A stretch of 35,491 bases of DNA from a virus. The stretch covers positions 1 through 35,491 of IMG/VR virus record IMGVR_UViG_3300014491_000437, one strand, 5' to 3'. Both the position numbers and the translations under genes were made by a program. Below the pieces are notes generated by a model that saw only the letters and a list, made by a program, of their open reading frames with translations, was not told the DNA's origin and searched no databases. Each line of letters opens with the position of its first letter. The first letter of the stretch is position 1. Below, in pieces: positions 26,796-35,491 of the stretch.

Positions 26796-27167
26796 TCAAT
26801 CCGGCTTGAACACTCCCGATTCAAGGTTGCGTAAAGTCATCCCGGCATCGAGAGACTGAGGTAGACAACCTGAACCATAGACAGCTCCGATGACTTGGCG
26901 CGCTAAATCTGGCGCAACAGCCAGTGTCTTCACGGCTGCCTTTAGCCGAACTTGCATATTCGGATGGCGGTAGAGCGGAAGCAGAGCCGCGCGAGCGTCG
27001 TTTCCTCGCCTCCTTAATTCGCTGTCAATATCGTTCATTTGACGGAAGAGCTGTCTAAATTCCGCGCGGCGCTCATAGAGAAGCGCTTGATCCTGTGCGA
27101 CTCCTATCTCGGCAAATCGCTGGACCAGTTCGTCGATCGTCGTCTCTTCGAGCTTGACCCTTGTCAT
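26796..27167 (-). CDS. DUF2019 protein, candidate immunity, orphan copy
   Basis: A 123-residue all-helical protein of the DUF2019 family: TTIDELVQRFAEIGVAQDQA, LFRQMNDIDSELRRRGNDAR, LYRHPNMQVRLKAAVKTLAV and AGMTLRNLESGVFKPD. The repeating helix pairs with HPNxQVRLxAA look HEAT-like. It has its own ribosome site (AGGGG before ATG 27165-27167) and begins 19 bases after the previous DUF2019 stop, with no toxin gene between them. It is probably retained as protection against a lost or external toxin variant (inference). Confidence 0.83.
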   Translation of the reverse strand: MTRVKLEETTIDELVQRFAEIGVAQDQALLYERRAEFRQLFRQMNDIDSELRRRGNDARAALLPLYRHPNMQVRLKAAVKTLAVAPDLARQVIGAVYGSGCLPQSLDAGMTLRNLESGVFKPD

Positions 27168-27186
27168 GGCGTCCCCTGTACGACCC

Positions 27187-27558
27187 TCAATCGGGATCAA
27201 ACGCCCCTGTCTGAATCCGCCAAAGCACCATTCCCGCATCGCCGGCTTGAGGGTAACATGCGGACCGACTTATATTTTCGATTACCTGAAGTGCCTCCTG
27301 CCGCGCGACCGCAAGCGTTTCGATTGCCGCCTGCAACCTCACCTGCGTGTTAGGGTGGTGGTAAAGCTGGACCAGCGATAATCGTGCTTCCCGGCCGCGT
27401 GAGCGCAACTCCCCGGTCACAGCTGCCATTTCTTCAAAAAGCCTATTATATTTGGAGATTTCTCCATAAAGTTCGGCTTTATCTTGGGCGACGCCAAGTG
27501 CAGCAAAACGAGCGACGAGCTCGTCGATCGCCACCGCGTGAAGGTTTAAACGCTTCAT
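27187..27558 (-). CDS. DUF2019 protein, candidate immunity for cassette 2
   Basis: A 123-residue DUF2019 protein: AIDELVARFAALGVAQDKAE, LFEEMAAVTGELRSRGREAR, LYHHPNTQVRLQAAIETLAV and the variant ending GMVLWRIQTGAFDPD. Its ATG (27556-27558) overlaps the cassette-2 toxin stop by four bases (ATGA), so the two are coupled. It is the most divergent of the four copies, matching the divergence of its partner toxin, as expected for specific toxin/immunity pairs. Confidence 0.84.
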   Translation of the reverse strand: MKRLNLHAVAIDELVARFAALGVAQDKAELYGEISKYNRLFEEMAAVTGELRSRGREARLSLVQLYHHPNTQVRLQAAIETLAVARQEALQVIENISRSACYPQAGDAGMVLWRIQTGAFDPD

Positions 27559-28310
27559 GGGCTCATTACCCCGAACTTCCTGAGCGCCAATAGGGCGACT
27601 TCTCGCATCTCTTGCCAACTCTTGCCTTTGAGATACTCCCGAGGAGAGAGATTTTCGAAGTATGGGTTCTTTCTCATATACAACCCGGTAATTTCCCAAT
27701 GCTTCAGGGTTGGTATCCGCACCAGATTGTCCGGGCCATCGATATCCTCTTGCGCGTGCCCCCCGCGCGCGGCGGGCGTCTGTTCTACGATATGATGGAC
27801 TTCATAGCCTTTCTCGGGCTTGCCGACGTCCCTTTGCAGCTCTTCTAGCGATTTTGGGGCGTCTAGATAGGCATTGATAGAGGGCAGCTTGTCGTAAAGC
27901 CAGCCGGTTTCCGCCGCCGCGGCGAGCACCTCGAGATATGCGCCCGCTCGCCTGGCCGCGTCGCCGGCCCCCGCCATGGCGCGCGCCAGCCATCGCGCCG
28001 CAGTCTTGGCGAAAGCGTTGCGCAGCTTTGTTTCAGCCGGCGGGACTGGCGGAATTTCCGGCGGTGGCCCCAGCGGCGGGCCGCCATTGTGGCCAATGCC
28101 CGAAGCGGCCGACCTACCTTCGACAACGCCTCTACCCTCAGAGCCGCCTCCGCCCCGTCCACCCTGAAACTGCCCGCCGCCCGGCGATCCGGCGGGAACG
28201 CGCGGATGTTTCGATTCATCCCAGCCTCCCGCCTTGGCGAGCAGGCCGGCCGCGCGCGCGTGATCCTTGAACAAAGCTGCATGCGCCGCGCGACATCGTC
28301 CACCGTCCAA
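27555..28310 (-). CDS. Orphan HNH-type toxin cassette with partial N-terminal module
   Basis: About 251 residues if read from the TTG at 28308-28310. It carries part of the N-terminal module (AALFKDHARAAGLLAKAGGW, KHPRVPAGSPGGGQFQGG), a GIGHNGGPPLGPPPEIP linker, helices (about 90-150), then the nuclease-like domain: EKGYEVHHIVEQTPAARGGH, GPDNLVRIPTLKHWEITGLY, SPREYLKGKSW, LLALRKFGVMSP. HH, DN and KH form an HNH/EndoVII-like pattern. Upstream (28311-28384) the module continues only with frame changes (one base lost, two gained), so no full-length protein can be made. I read it as a silent or internally started cassette downstream of the complete gene. Its stop overlaps a DUF2019 gene. Confidence 0.75.
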   Translation of the reverse strand: MDGGRCRAAHAALFKDHARAAGLLAKAGGWDESKHPRVPAGSPGGGQFQGGRGGGGSEGRGVVEGRSAASGIGHNGGPPLGPPPEIPPVPPAETKLRNAFAKTAARWLARAMAGAGDAARRAGAYLEVLAAAAETGWLYDKLPSINAYLDAPKSLEELQRDVGKPEKGYEVHHIVEQTPAARGGHAQEDIDGPDNLVRIPTLKHWEITGLYMRKNPYFENLSPREYLKGKSWQEMREVALLALRKFGVMSP

Positions 28311-28384
28311 AGCGCGGCCCGTCAGCGGGGGGCAGCTCCAGCAGCGCGATGTTGAGCGACGCGGCCAGCGCGCGTCCGAGCGCC
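28146..28384 (-). repeat. N-terminal module repeat, copy 2 of 3 (degenerate)
   Basis: Second copy of the module, shortened at its upstream end and carrying frame-changing indels (one base lost near 28318, two gained near 28290) relative to the full-length gene. It begins about 35 bases after the first DUF2019 stop. Confidence 0.78.
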
Positions 28385-28419
28385 TTTTGCGCGGCGCCTT
28401 TCAGCTAGGACTGTCAACA

Positions 28420-28788
28420 TTAATCCGGTCGGAAAATGCCGGCGTCAAGATTCCGCAGCGTCATGCCCGCGTCACCTGCCTGCGGAAATATGTCAGAGTT
28501 GCTAATCGCCTCAATTGCGTTTCGCGCAGCCTTCGGGGCAACGCCGAGCGTTCGCTTCGCGGCGTTCAAACGAACTTGCAAGTTCCCGTGGTCATAAAGC
28601 CTGAGCAATGCGAGTCGGGCGTCGCGACCGCGCGTTCGGAGTTCTTTCTCGGTTGCATCCATTTGATCGTAAAGTCGATTAAACTTTCGATATTCCTCCG
28701 ATATCAATGCTTGGTCCTGGGCAATGCCGATCTGCGCAAATCGGTCGATCAATTCATCTATCGTCATAGCGGCGAGTTTCTGTTTCAA
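28420..28788 (-). CDS. DUF2019 protein, candidate immunity for full-length toxin
   Basis: A 122-residue DUF2019 protein: AMTIDELIDRFAQIGIAQDQ, LYDQMDATEKELRTRGRDAR, LYDHGNLQVRLNAAKRTLGV and AGMTLRNLDAGIFRPD. The start is taken as TTG (28786-28788). Its first bases overlap the toxin TGA (TTGA), and the residue order then lines up with the ATG starts of the other copies (KQKLAAMTIDEL versus KRLNLHAVAIDEL). Longer frames to 28848 would run far into the toxin gene. An immunity role is inferred from coupling and copy number; the family itself has no settled function that I know of. Confidence 0.85.
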   Translation of the reverse strand: MKQKLAAMTIDELIDRFAQIGIAQDQALISEEYRKFNRLYDQMDATEKELRTRGRDARLALLRLYDHGNLQVRLNAAKRTLGVAPKAARNAIEAISNSDIFPQAGDAGMTLRNLDAGIFRPD

Positions 28789-31329: not shown

Positions 31330-32637
31330 TCAGCCGCCGGCGGCGCCTTCCGCTTCGCGGCGGTAGAATTCGATGATGCCGGTTCCGTCATCGCGGCCGA
31401 AGAGATGCGTCAACGCCCAGATCGCGGCGTCTGCGTGGTCGGGGCTGCCGCCGCCATTGTAGCCAGCGCCAGAAAAGGCGCAGAGCTGATCCTCCAGTTT
31501 GCCGAAACGACCGGCGTGATGCACCTGCCCCTGTGCGTAGCGCACCGAGATCGGCTCCGCCCGCACCGCCTTGCCGCGGCTCGCGGCGACGAGACGCACC
31601 GGCACGTTGCGATCGGCGGCCTGTATCGTCGCGCGAACCATCTCCCCGCCAAAATTGCTTTCCGCCACGATGCAGTCGGCGCGATATTTGTGAAACGCAA
31701 CCACCGCTCGCCTGCCCCACACGGCGGGGGCCTCGCGGCAGGAGAGATCATCGAGGACATAAGCGTCGCCATCGAACCCGCGCGCCGCAATGACAATGCC
31801 AATTTCGTCGGCGCCAAGATCATCGCGGCCCGCCGCGCCTGATGGATCCACGGCGACGACGACGCTGGCGCGCCGGTCTTCAGGGATATCGTCCGGCGCG
31901 CAGCGATTGGCGTCGATCACGCTGTAGCTCCACAGCGCGCCATCGACCTCGTCGACGTAAACGCCCTCGAAGAAGCGCTTGCGTTGCTTCTCTGGAAGAT
32001 TTGCGAGGCTGGCCAGAAATTGTTTCGACAGATTGGCCTTGTTGTCGGACGGATTGAGGAAAGCGCGGGCGTAGCTTGCCGGATCCTTCAAGGGCTTCAA
32101 ACTAACAGGATCGATCTTGTCGCCGAACAGCCTATTGGTCCAGTGCGTCTTGCCAACCGGATTGAGATCGACAAACGCGCGCTGGCTGATTTTCGGCGCC
32201 ACCTGCGCCAGCCGGGTAAAGGCGACGAGAGCAGACGAATAGGGAATCTGCGAGGCCTCGTTCAGAAATACGGTTGAATATTCAAGACCAAGAATTTTTT
32301 CGACCCGGTCCTTGTCGTCGAGGCCGCCGATCCAGATCCGCGACCCGTTCTCCAGTTCGAAATATCCATCCTGGCGGCGCTCGCGCAGTTTCGTCCCGGG
32401 AAAGCAGCAGCGCATCACTTTCGGCAGGGAATCAAGCGTGATCGAGGCGCGGGCGGCGTTGGCATGGAAGCGCAGAACGGCGTGACGGGAGCCCTCTGAC
32501 AGCAGCGCGCGCGTGACGATGGCGCGAAGGATCAGAAATGTCTTGCCCGAACGCGTGCCGCCGACGAGGCAGGCGTAACGCTGCGGTCCATCCAGCAGGC
32601 GGCGCGCCGCCTCCTGGCCTGGGCTGAATGTCGCCAT
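31330..32637 (-). CDS. Terminase large subunit
   Basis: A 435-residue large terminase, the ATP-driven DNA packaging motor and headful/site nuclease. Walker A GGTRSGKT (residues 26-33), a Walker B-like STVFLNEAS with Glu127, coupling motif FVDLNP, and a C-terminal RNase H-like nuclease with VVVAVDPSG, DCIVAESNFGG and DHADAAIWALTHL. The ATG at 32635-32637 has GGGAG. Upstream extensions enter the repeat region and lack homology. No small terminase is recognisable beside it. Confidence 0.92.
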   Translation of the reverse strand: MATFSPGQEAARRLLDGPQRYACLVGGTRSGKTFLILRAIVTRALLSEGSRHAVLRFHANAARASITLDSLPKVMRCCFPGTKLRERRQDGYFELENGSRIWIGGLDDKDRVEKILGLEYSTVFLNEASQIPYSSALVAFTRLAQVAPKISQRAFVDLNPVGKTHWTNRLFGDKIDPVSLKPLKDPASYARAFLNPSDNKANLSKQFLASLANLPEKQRKRFFEGVYVDEVDGALWSYSVIDANRCAPDDIPEDRRASVVVAVDPSGAAGRDDLGADEIGIVIAARGFDGDAYVLDDLSCREAPAVWGRRAVVAFHKYRADCIVAESNFGGEMVRATIQAADRNVPVRLVAASRGKAVRAEPISVRYAQGQVHHAGRFGKLEDQLCAFSGAGYNGGGSPDHADAAIWALTHLFGRDDGTGIIEFYRREAEGAAGG

Positions 32638-32758
32638 GCACGCTCCCGTCTTCGAGGTTTTATGATTGCGGCTGAGGATCGCGCTTGGCCGGAGGCGGGC
32701 TGCGTTCCTTGAAGAATCGGGTTCGCGATGGCGGTTGATGCAGCCGGCGAAACAAAGG

Positions 32759-32851
32759 CGCAGTTCGGCCCCGGCACACGCGCATATTGCCCTTGCAATC
32801 TGTTGCAAGTCAATCCACAGCGGCGACAGTCAAATCGCGTATCTTACAACA
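32759..32851 (-). repeat. 93-bp repeat, copy 1 of 3
   Basis: Shares a 55-base core (32759-32813) with copies at 33041 and 33707 and the element ATCTTACA at its other end, with a diverged 25-base middle but identical total length. Read leftward the core contains TTGACT (32808-32813), 18 bases, CAATAT (32784-32789), with the inverted repeat CTTGCAA-N4-TTGCAAG between them. That is compatible with a regulated promoter facing the terminase operon 120 bases away. Confidence 0.8.
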
Positions 32852-33040
32852 TTGTCATGCGACCCAACGCACAACAACGCCATTAGATGCTCCGATCCGG
32901 CGCGGTTGCATCGCCGCGCGCTGGCAATGCGCGGGTCTTTAAACGGCGCGGGTTCGTCGTGTTGAATTCTGGGGAGTCGACGATATTGGCCAATCACGCC
33001 CGCCGGGCCGCTGGAGGCTGCGGAGGCACATCGCGAAGGA

Positions 33041-33133
33041 CGCAGTTCGGCCCCGGCACACGCGCATATTGCCCTTGCAATCCGTTGCAAGTCAATCCAC
33101 CGCAACAATGGCAAAACAACGCATCTTACAACA
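33041..33133 (-). repeat. 93-bp repeat, copy 2 of 3
   Basis: Core nearly identical to copy 1, with one change in the inverted repeat spacer (TCCG for TCTG). TTGACT at 33090-33095 and CAATAT at 33066-33071, 18 bases apart on the minus strand. Lies upstream of the GrlR-like moron. Confidence 0.8.
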
Positions 33134-33255
33134 TCGTTTGCGATTTGACGCTGTTTCGCGGACATATTGGCCGCGCGGCTCGATTTTATTGTGTCGCGGT
33201 CGGGCGAATCGGCTATGGGTCTCAAACTAAAATCGATCGAAATTCGGAGATTTAG

Positions 33256-33579
33256 ATGACGGATGGTCTTTACAAGGTTCACTACGAAACAGCGCTCGGA
33301 CAGGGATTTGGCGTCGCTACGCTGCTCGATGGGACAATTCGCGGCGGCGACAGCATTTTTTACTACAGCGGCCCGTTTACGTGGAAAGGCGATGAGTTCG
33401 TCGCCAATGTCCTAACCGGCCGATTTGGCGACGTGAGCGCGCCATCCGTATTCGGCAAAGACGACGTCCATCTCGCGCTGCAGGGAAAGTCAACGAAGGG
33501 TTCGCTCAGCGTGACCGGCCATGCCAAGGAGGCGCCGGATATCGCCTTCCGGGCGACCTTCACGAAAATTGCGGATTGA
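33256..33579 (+). CDS. GrlR-like regulator, prophage moron
   Basis: A 107-residue protein resembling the GrlR family (small beta-barrel proteins known as negative regulators of type III secretion in enteropathogens): DGLYKVHYETALGQGFGVAT, LLDGTIRGGDSIFYYSGPFT, GDEFVANVLTGRFG and the ending LSVTGHAKEAPDIAFRATFT. It is the only plus-strand gene within the leftward phage operons, has GGAG seven bases before its ATG and a perfect terminator 40 bases after its stop, and is bracketed by 93-bp repeats. This is the layout of a moron, expressed from the lysogen independently of phage genes. What it regulates here is unknown. Confidence 0.78.
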   Translation: MTDGLYKVHYETALGQGFGVATLLDGTIRGGDSIFYYSGPFTWKGDEFVANVLTGRFGDVSAPSVFGKDDVHLALQGKSTKGSLSVTGHAKEAPDIAFRATFTKIAD

Positions 33580-33616
33580 TAAGGCCGCCGTCGCAGGCGT
33601 GTTGAAAAAGTTTGGA

Positions 33617-33642
33617 AGCCCGGCGGATCGGCCGGGCTTTTT
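33617..33642 (+). terminator. Rho-independent terminator of the GrlR-like gene
   Basis: AGCCCGGC (33617-33624), six-base loop GGATCG, perfect complement GCCGGGCT (33631-33638), followed by a run of T. Ends the rightward moron transcript. Confidence 0.92.
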
Positions 33643-33706
33643 CATTGCGTTCGGTCTGGAAAGGACTAAGGGCGCGAAGCGATGTTGGACGTCGGCGCCG
33701 CCGGCG

Positions 33707-33799
33707 CGCAATTCGGCCCCGGTATGCGCGCATATTGCTCACGCAATCTGTTGCAAGTCAACGCAGGGAGATCGCGGCTATTTCCGCGATCTTACAAGG
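33707..33799 (-). repeat. 93-bp repeat, copy 3 of 3
   Basis: More diverged copy (CGCAATTCGGCCCC core, one arm of the inverted repeat altered) but again exactly 93 bases. TTGACT (33756-33761) and CAATAT (33732-33737) keep the 18-base spacing. It lies between the DUF6362 gene end and the moron terminator. Confidence 0.75.
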
Positions 33800-33852: not shown

Positions 33853-34371
33853 CTAAAACACCAACACGCCGCGCGCATTGAGCCATTGCGCCAGATGCGA
33901 TAGCGCCTTCGCCCGCTTGCGGTAGAATGTGTGCGGCGCCCATTTCTTTTCGCTGCAAAGCGCTTTGACGGAACGCCCTCGCGCGGCGCGCAAGGCCCAA
34001 AGGCTCGTCACCAGCGCCATGCCGGTATCGATTGTCCGCAATTCGCGCAGCCAGTCGAAAGCCGCCTCCATCTGCCCGATTTCGGCGCTGGTCGGGCGTA
34101 GATTTGTGCGGTTAGCCGCGGCCTCGCGCGCGCGGCGCTCGCCGTCGTCAATTTCGGCCTGCGCCAATTGGTCCGCCCATTCGACGCTGTGGCGCGGCCA
34201 ATGTCCGCCGGGCTCGCGCGGCCCGCGCGAACGCGGCATGCGGTCGAGTGTGGCGAAGGCCTTGACGAGCGCGCGGGCGACCTGCTCCGGCTCCCAATGC
34301 GTCGGCAATGTCTGGCGGTCTGGCGAATAGGGCGCTTCGAGCGCGTTGATCTTCTCGGCCGGCTCCATCAT
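33853..34371 (-). CDS. DUF6362-type phage protein
   Basis: A 172-residue protein resembling DUF6362: THWEPEQVARALVKAFATLD, RMPRSRGPREPGGHWPRHSV, LRPTSAEIGQMEAAFDWLRE and SLWALRAARGRSVKALC, then a helix-turn-helix-like end (WAPHTFYRKRAKALSHLAQW followed by LNARGV). The start is ATG 34369-34371, overlapping the previous gene stop by one base (TGATG). DUF6362 genes commonly follow GcrA-like genes in Rhizobiales phages. The HTH-like C-terminus suggests DNA binding, so a regulator or a small-terminase-like role is possible. Confidence 0.72.
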   Translation of the reverse strand: MMEPAEKINALEAPYSPDRQTLPTHWEPEQVARALVKAFATLDRMPRSRGPREPGGHWPRHSVEWADQLAQAEIDDGERRAREAAANRTNLRPTSAEIGQMEAAFDWLRELRTIDTGMALVTSLWALRAARGRSVKALCSEKKWAPHTFYRKRAKALSHLAQWLNARGVLVF

Positions 34372-34712
34372 CAAATTCCGTCGTCGAGAATATTGTCGAT
34401 CAGCGTCGGATCGGCGGCGACGACGAGCAACAGGAGCTTGATCATCGAGTCGCGGGTGAGGCTGCGCTTGGCAGCCGCCGCGTCATAAAGCTGGGCGGCT
34501 TCGGGCGGCAGGCGCAGCGCAAGCGCGGCCGCAGCGGCGCGGAAGGCGAGGCCGAAGCGCTGCGCCTGACGGTGCACATTGTTGGGCGTGGAGCTTATCA
34601 ACGGGTCTTCGGCGATGCGGCGGGCGTCCCAGCCAAGGCCGAGGAGAAAGCCGAGCCTTGCGATGCGCTCGCCGGTCCAGGGGGCTTTCTGGATTTCAGT
34701 TCTGATCTTCAC
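34371..34712 (-). CDS. GcrA-like DNA-binding protein, first early gene
   Basis: A 113-residue protein. Residues 10-50 (APWTGERIARLGFLLGLGWD, then ARRIAEDPLISSTPNNVHRQ and AQRFGLAFR) look like the helix-turn-helix domain of GcrA cell-cycle regulators (W-T-x-E-R, then N-x-V, then the GL-x-x-R end). The C-terminal half is a helical region, ending DPTLIDNILDDGI. GTG start at 34710-34712, with GGGAG eight bases upstream; homology begins there. It lies first behind the early promoter and may control early or middle phage genes through the host methylation-dependent GcrA circuit (inference). Confidence 0.68.
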   Translation of the reverse strand: MKIRTEIQKAPWTGERIARLGFLLGLGWDARRIAEDPLISSTPNNVHRQAQRFGLAFRAAAAALALRLPPEAAQLYDAAAAKRSLTRDSMIKLLLLVVAADPTLIDNILDDGI

Positions 34713-34777: not shown

Positions 34778-34806
34778 AGAATACGGTAACACTACCTATA
34801 TGTAAA
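34778..34806 (-). promoter_or_regulatory. Early leftward promoter (PR-like)
   Basis: On the minus strand: TTTACA (34801-34806), a 17-base spacer, TATTCT (34778-34783). Close to the sigma-70 consensus with ideal spacing. It would start about 34771 and read into the GcrA-like gene at 34712. Operator 1 lies inside the spacer and operator 2 touches the -35 element, as expected for repression by the divergent repressor. Confidence 0.78.
34785..34796. promoter_or_regulatory. Operator-like palindrome 1
   Basis: GGTA-ACAC-TACC, inside the spacer of the early promoter. Confidence 0.72.
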
Positions 34807-34818
34807 GGTATTTTTACC
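34807..34818. promoter_or_regulatory. Operator-like palindrome 2
   Basis: GGTA-TTTT-TACC, next to the -35 of the early promoter; centre 22 bases (two helix turns) from palindrome 1. Confidence 0.72.
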
Positions 34819-34840
34819 GAATGTTTTTGGCGCAAAGTAC

Positions 34841-34852
34841 GGTTATTCTACC
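34841..34852. promoter_or_regulatory. Operator-like palindrome 3
   Basis: GGTT-ATTC-TACC, within a wider ACGGT-N6-ACCGT palindrome. It covers the -10 of the repressor promoter, consistent with autoregulation. Centre is 34 bases from palindrome 2. Confidence 0.7.
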
Positions 34853-34855
34853 GTT
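34844..34855 (+). promoter_or_regulatory. Repressor -10 element, probably leaderless transcript
   Basis: TATTCT (34844-34849) ends six bases before the repressor ATG (34856-34858), so the expected start of transcription is at or next to the ATG. No ribosome-binding site precedes it. The -35 region is weak (TGTTTT about 34822-34827). This resembles the leaderless cI transcript from lambda PRM. Confidence 0.5.
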
Positions 34856-35491
34856 ATGGATCTCGAAGACGTTCTCACCCGCATCGAAAGCCGGCTCGAG
34901 GCCCTTGGCCTTTCCGCCCACGCCGCCTCGCTCGCGGCGAAGAAGCCCGACGCCATCCGCAATCTGAAACGCGCTGTCAAAAGCGGCGACCGGCGCGGCG
35001 TCACGACCGAGACTCTGACGGCCCTCGCGCCAGTCCTGAAGACGACGGCGGCCTGGCTGCTCGAGGGCGTCGGCGATGCGCAGCCCGGCAATCGCGTGCG
35101 CGTGGTCGGGCGCATCGGCGCCGGCGCCGAGATCCAGCCCGAGTTTGAGCAGATTCCTCCTGACGGGCTCTATGAAATTGAGGTGCCCTTCCCGATCGCC
35201 GCGGACGCCATCGCATTCCAGGTCGAGGGCGACAGCATGTGGCCGCGCTACGATCCCGGCGACGTCATCATCTGCTGGCGCGAGGGCGCCGACGCCGAGC
35301 AGGTGATCGGCTGGGAGGCGGCGGTGCGCACCGCCGACGGCAAACGCTATCTGAAGCGCATCCAGCGCGGCGCGCGGGCCGGGACCTTCGACCTCGAAAG
35401 CCATAATGCGGCGCCGATCCGCAGCGTCAGGATCGAATGGGCGGCCGAGATCCAGGGCGTCGTGCGATTCGGTCAATGGCGCCGTCGTTAG
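34856..35491 (+). CDS. CI/LexA-type phage repressor (S24 peptidase)
   Basis: A 211-residue repressor, complete, ending at the last base of the window. The N-terminal domain (about 1-70: LSAHAASLAAKKPDAIRNLK, then LTALAPVLKTTAAWLLEGVG) is the HTH type common in Rhizobiales prophages. The C-terminal S24 peptidase domain has catalytic Ser in GDSMWPRYDPGD (S127), Lys in GKRYLKRI (K163 or K167), and an Ala-Gly self-cleavage site in GRIGAGAEI (A89-G90). It should bind the three GGTA-N4-TACC sites, hold the early promoter shut in the lysogen and cleave itself when RecA is activated. No integrase is visible, so the lysogeny module probably continues to the right. Confidence 0.88.
   Translation: MDLEDVLTRIESRLEALGLSAHAASLAAKKPDAIRNLKRAVKSGDRRGVTTETLTALAPVLKTTAAWLLEGVGDAQPGNRVRVVGRIGAGAEIQPEFEQIPPDGLYEIEVPFPIAADAIAFQVEGDSMWPRYDPGDVIICWREGADAEQVIGWEAAVRTADGKRYLKRIQRGARAGTFDLESHNAAPIRSVRIEWAAEIQGVVRFGQWRRR

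Follow-up and report, generated by a model that had tools for sequence, protein, structure and literature searches.

Placing the site of a regulatory factor inside the promoter that it governs is an established design. The promoter of the main Caulobacter crescentus GTA cluster carries, between -35 and -10, a palindrome required for the binding of GafZ, a proposed antiterminator whose site was likened by the authors to those of Q and AlpA (PMC11150451), and in phage 21 two protomers of Q bind 6-bp direct repeats between the same two elements (PMC6606751). The locus described here plausibly follows this design, and its unusual part is that the promoter is arrayed. We consider it probable that three scattered repeats upstream of a large terminase gene (TerL) are a tandem array of factor-dependent late promoters, each with a factor site between -35 and -10. 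Judged from sequence, a promoter array for the late operon is well supported and a factor bound in the spacer is likely; that the factor is the neighbouring DUF6362-like protein, with or without a GcrA-like partner, and that it acts by antitermination, is plausible.

The window, a virus record of 35,491 bp analysed over its full length, is a prophage-like cluster, possibly GTA-like (Table 1). Read along the minus strand, it runs from the GcrA-like and DUF6362-like genes through the three repeat elements to TerL, the portal, more head genes, an RcGTA-type tail module and a GH108 endolysin. The repeats occupy the gap between the DUF6362-like gene and TerL and are directed toward TerL, which is the first gene downstream of them and opens the late genes. 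Copies 2 and 3 are separated by an accessory gene for a 107-aa protein, which is followed by a terminator-like hairpin and T tract (~33616-33643); the gene is present only in the window record and in one relative, L009, and had no family match in phrog and Pfam searches, and its supposed resemblance to GrlR is borne out by no search. Elsewhere in the window, three similar small genes with a DEL(V/I)xRFAxxGxAQD motif lie close together between the portal and the capsid-side genes (26799-28767, minus strand) and are probably tandem duplicates. At the left end lies a glutathione peroxidase gene (PF00255, 4-396, minus strand); three other records carry a homologue (56-60%) at the equivalent end, and the gene is either a conserved host neighbour or cargo.

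Table 1. Coordinates of the repeat elements and neighbouring genes in the window
Feature	Position	Strand	Basis and details
Large terminase (TerL)	31330..32637	-	phrog_979 E=7e-58; PF17289, PF04466
Element copy 1, TerL-proximal	32757..32848	-	Repeat and profile scan; conserved start region runs to 32757
Copy 1, TGTAAGA	32842-32848	-	
Copy 1, -35 TTGACT	32808-32813	-	
Copy 1, spacer	32790-32807	-	TTGCAA and TTGCAA
Copy 1, -10 CAATAT	32784-32789	-	
Element copy 2, middle	33039..33130	-	Repeat and profile scan
Copy 2, TGTAAGA	33124-33130	-	
Copy 2, -35	33090-33095	-	
Copy 2, spacer	33072-33089	-	
Copy 2, -10	33066-33071	-	
Accessory gene (107 aa) within the array	33256..33579	+	Open reading frame
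Element copy 3, distal, just after DUF6362-like gene	33705..33796	-	Repeat and profile scan
Copy 3, TGTAAGA	33790-33796	-	
Copy 3, -35	33756-33761	-	
Copy 3, spacer	33738-33755	-	
Copy 3, -10	33732-33737	-	
DUF6362-like gene, last before array	33853..34374	-	phrog_6836 3e-15; PF19889 8.8e-5, below cut-off
GcrA-like small protein gene	34371..34712	-	PF07750 0.026, below cut-off; PDB GcrA E=0.034
CI operator region (presumed), GGT-N6-ACC x3	34778..34853		Sites at 34840-34853, 34806-34819, 34784-34797
CI/S24-type repressor gene, divergent from early operon, right end	34856..35491	+	PF00717 1.6e-10; phrog_4 1.6e-15

The earlier note on this DNA described three repeats of equal length, and ungapped copies are indeed found starting at 32759, 33041 and 33707, with three matches in the window to a core 19-mer against 0.00 expected from shuffles. 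Over 93 bp the copies are identical at 80/93 positions (copies 1 and 2), 66/93 (1 and 3) and 64/93 (2 and 3). For the same pairs in the same order, the shared 55-base core agrees at 54/55, 48/55 and 47/55 positions and the last 8 bases at 8/8, 6/8 and 6/8, while the 30 bases between have diverged with their length kept, to 18/30, 12/30 and 11/30. TTGACT-18-CAATAT is present on the minus strand of all three copies, and CTTGCAA-N4-TTGCAAG is matched exactly by copies 1 and 2 and with two mismatches by copy 3. The ATCTTACA end reads TGTAAGAT on the minus strand, where it is the 5' end of the element and lies exactly 35 nt upstream of TTGACT in every copy. On that strand the window copies read TGTAAGA, 28 bp, TTGACT, 18 bp, CAATAT and GCGCG. 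The 93-bp repeat is therefore real, but the unit conserved across relatives is one of ~92 bp running from TGTAAGA to the end of an AAYTGCG block, and it is directional, on the minus strand.

Searching with TerL gave 47 related loci, and 430 kb around the TerL relatives was scanned on both strands, with a simple consensus and then with a profile. The profile scan gave 49 elements, the three of the window included, and all 49 lie upstream of TerL on the TerL strand, at -156 to -1168 relative to the TerL start; some come from near-duplicate records, leaving 40 distinct copies with an 18-bp spacer. Records carry between one and four copies, spaced 171-666 bp apart. A promoter-plus-leader unit of ~260-330 bp is duplicated in L020 and L023, and the upstream copy in L049, L050 and L052 is without the TGTA box. 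Apart from apparently fortuitous matches, scans of the sequence collections found no copies away from TerL, and the derived pattern matched only loci of this terminase lineage; genome_contigs gave seven matches, none reaching the full element, about as many as we estimate would be expected for 18 fixed bases in 257 Gb. No such element is present in the more distant L054-L056 (TerL 62%), and in L054 and L055 the region ahead of TerL is also free of long direct repeats. The TerL protein is at most 46% identical to named relatives in phages and 48% in plasmids, and when sought in ~1,480 genomes, mostly of Pseudomonadota, it gave only two distant matches (45-47%). No DNA-level named relative of the intergenic region was found among phages and no named relative of the DUF6362-like protein, and Rfam returned sub-threshold matches only, with no known RNA family.

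The common architecture is TGTAMGA, 28 bp, TTGAC(T/C), a conserved 18-bp spacer, C(T/A)(A/T)TAT and GCGCGCATGC. Across the 40 distinct copies there is next to no variation in TTGAC, in the TAT that ends the -10 or in the GCGCG start region (1.0-1.95 bits per position), and the spacer motif TGC(A)AC...TTG comes close to this (up to 1.8 bits); the stretch from the TGTA box to the -35 is mostly below 0.4 bits. Between the window and L009, 185 of 192 element positions are identical (96%), against 436 of 619 other non-coding positions (70%; Fisher p ~1e-16). The spacer is 18 bp long in 46 copies and 17 bp in three, in which the TAT shifts along with it, a pattern expected of a promoter and not of coding sequence. 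The suggestion in the earlier note of a family of co-regulated promoters is upheld as regards promoter architecture, found in 49 copies upstream of TerL under strong constraint, but not as regards promoters of different genes, as the copies are in tandem and aimed into one operon, that of TerL and the late genes.

The rhizobial sigma-70 consensus is CTTGAC-N17-CTATAT (PMC2873474). TTGACY and (C)TATAT of the element match this consensus with a gap of 19 in place of 17, and in a scan of 2.2 kb no rhizobial-type site on this strand was better than the three copies. By analogy the transcription start would lie ~6-9 nt after the TAT; a dyad in the start region is not conserved (paired 0.545 vs 0.577 in shuffles). 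An over-long gap that encloses conserved sequence suggests a requirement for a factor.

As to the form of a site in the spacer, the inverted repeat noticed earlier is not the conserved feature, being exact in only 6 of the 49 copies, and its pairing does not co-vary (0.625 vs 0.612 in shuffles). Because TTGCAA is self-complementary, TTGCAA-N4-TTGCAA is equally a direct repeat of 10-bp period. The best direct-repeat offset is 10 (0.51; next 0.35), and the direct reading, TTGYRA twice 10 bp apart, scores 0.69 vs 0.63 for the inverted one, with 11 copies favouring the former, 2 the latter and 27 tied. In the relatives the direct repeat thus appears slightly better kept than the inverted, the difference being modest.

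These features also bear on the view that the elements are promoters needing no phage factor, either constitutive or served by a host regulator in the spacer such as a MerR-type activator, a class that uses long spacers of 19-20 bp. The gap of 19 on the rhizobial scale would suit it, as would the persistence of the array in records without adjacent phage regulators. However, within the sequences searched the array occurs in this terminase lineage and nowhere else, the operators of MerR proteins are inverted repeats while the dyad pairing here is without co-variation, and no MerR protein was seen among the window proteins scanned; we regard such promoters as unlikely.

For the favoured reading of factor-dependent late promoters, candidate regulators are found in the early operon, presumed to be CI-repressed, which opens with the GcrA-like gene and otherwise encodes just the DUF6362-like protein. 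In hosts, GcrA co-regulates the cell cycle together with sigma-70, and this role may tie induction to that pathway. PF07750 was matched by 12 of 12 GcrA-like relatives, all weakly (best 0.0015), and a fold search with the GcrA-like model returned nothing significant. The DUF6362-like protein, whose family has no mention in the literature searched, is small and all-helical by prediction (model pLDDT 71). Its model has no significant PDB match, and its matches to viral folds are weak and for the most part lack names, as does the best of them (E=0.004); several lower-ranking ones are named as sigma-like proteins or regulators. It is a candidate late activator or antiterminator, or small terminase. 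Both genes lie ahead of the array in those relatives in which cI is present as well, and a DUF6362 homologue (hhalign probability 96.6%) and a true GcrA (3e-27) stand ahead of TerL in L054, a distant record; on this homology, the pair is conserved more deeply than the present lineage. In L024, L027, L029/L030 and L037 the array is present without adjacent DUF6362 or GcrA-like genes, so that there a factor would act from elsewhere.

If the DUF6362-like protein were the small terminase, the repeats could instead be packaging-initiation (pac/cos-type) sites to which it binds. The location of the repeats directly before TerL accords with this, as does a small, predicted all-helical protein encoded immediately upstream of TerL, the only small-terminase candidate recognised in the window. 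Nevertheless the best-conserved columns are those of a sigma-70-type promoter in one orientation, the -10 shifts along in the 17-bp variants, both the number of copies (1-4) and their spacing (171-666 bp) range widely, and in L054 an extra gene lies between the DUF6362 homologue and TerL, all of which makes packaging sites an unlikely explanation.

Between the GcrA-like gene and cI, at the early promoter (TTTACA-17-TATTCT), are the GGT-N6-ACC sites presumed to be CI operators; two or three such sites recur at the same place in the relatives examined, and none lies within the window's array. CI thus most likely acts, to judge from these sites, on the early operon, in which case the late array would need another signal. 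Two further GGT-N6-ACC sites were seen beyond the other end of cI in L019 (356-390), L026 (99-132) and L048 (1290-1323). Also beyond cI, on the same strand, is a conserved small gene of unknown family (L048 856-1374, L019 4-321, L051 4-330), followed in L048 by a serpin-like gene, identified by eye, that may mark the host boundary.

An identity of the repeats with CI operators was considered and rejected, the candidate operators differing from them in sequence and place. The palindrome in copies 1 and 2 and the presence of several copies could speak for CI operators or for a generic mobile repeat, but in the relatives examined the candidate GGT-N6-ACC sites occupy the cI/early intergenic region, and no copy of the repeat was found away from this locus in the 430 kb, and we hold either to be highly improbable. 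The earlier alternative that the core codes for a short peptide, in a frame open in all three window copies, has a negligible probability, as that frame contains a stop in 29 of the 49 copies (at codon 7 in 26 of these), each of the other reading frames has stops in some copies, and the 17-bp spacers of three copies differ from the 18-bp form by one-base indels.

In our model of a factor-dependent promoter array, the tandem copies would fire on the minus strand into the TerL, head, tail and lysis genes. CI would block the early promoter, and hence the GcrA-like and DUF6362-like proteins, and upon loss of CI one or both of these would be made and act at the array. The factor, probably as two protomers on the 10-bp-spaced direct repeat, would occupy the conserved spacer between -35 and -10 and engage RNA polymerase. 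There it would activate a promoter whose -35/-10 gap exceeds the rhizobial optimum by 2 bp, and/or render the polymerase termination-resistant over the ~30 kb of the operon, in the manner of Q, AlpA and GafZ. A second factor would be bound at the TGTAMGA box (~-71 to -56). With more than one copy there would be more than one loading site, and the copies may have originated by duplication of the promoter-plus-leader unit. The array would probably switch on the particle-making genes together, helped by the phage regulator.

No tyrosine integrase (PF00589) was found in the window or in 23 of 24 related records, which may be fragments. The tail module is of RcGTA type, with GTA_TIM, DUF2460, BR0599 and Phage-tail_3 with Rcc01698_C; such a module is also possible in ordinary phages. 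In L024, L027, L029, L030 and L037, TerL and the array lie without cI or early genes beside apparently non-phage genes (TPR/glycosyltransferase, methyltransferase-like, transposase-like), and these are possible stand-alone GTA-like clusters. About ten records open precisely with TerL, as though what lies upstream did not resemble phage genes. The non-phage neighbours, these record starts and the glutathione peroxidase gene fit a domesticated cluster, but could also reflect trimming or a shared cargo gene. It is possible, though in our judgement doubtful, that this is a domesticated GTA-like lineage in which a tandem antiterminator- or activator-loading array, changing in size by unit duplication, is run by the GcrA-like and DUF6362 pair.

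In a terminase lineage not described before, the array is the likely switch for the particle-making operon as a whole. With it DUF6362 gains a concrete candidate role, and the 49-member motif with its exact spacing is available for identifying the protein that binds it.

Among known systems, the late regulators of Gram-positive phages and PBSX are encoded by a small sigma-like gene between the early region and the terminase, and act on a promoter just before the packaging genes; they are not known to use promoter arrays. Q requires a sigma-dependent pause element, and a Q-type, -10-like pause element is not evident here, with a 4/6 match in 5 of 40 start regions against ~1.5 expected. Intrinsic terminators after the promoters (5 in 19 regions vs 1.4 expected) are likewise not systematic. 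As at lambdoid pR' with Q, a conserved motif lies between -35 and -10 ahead of a late operon, where by analogy it would be bound (PMC6606751), but no homology between DUF6362 and Q was detected and the promoter here is multiplied. The Pseudomonas aeruginosa AlpA/PalpB system is similarly analogous in having an antiterminator site between -35 and -10 and a regulator under a repressor, and differs in that one promoter, equipped with a terminator and a pause element, serves lysis genes (PMC9371919). Neither of the two regulator proteins scanned has a Pfam match to DUF6456, the domain of GafY, a C. crescentus regulator with ~18 targets (PMC11150451). A close likeness is to C. crescentus PgtaT with GafY/GafZ: the array precedes the first, terminase-region gene, as in that alphaproteobacterial GTA cluster, and has a repeat-type motif, here a putative factor site, between -35 and -10 (PMC11150451). 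An upstream activator site, a long leader and activator genes under a repressor are also common to both, though putative here (PMC11150451). PgtaT, however, occurs once, has a degenerate -35, involves IHF and has its GafY site far upstream, at -123 to -113 (PMC11150451), whereas the present lineage has one to four copies, a near-consensus -35 with a nearly invariant TTGAC, an upstream box at ~-71 to -56 and another spacer sequence, and so adds an arrayed version to the design in which the factor site lies inside the promoter.
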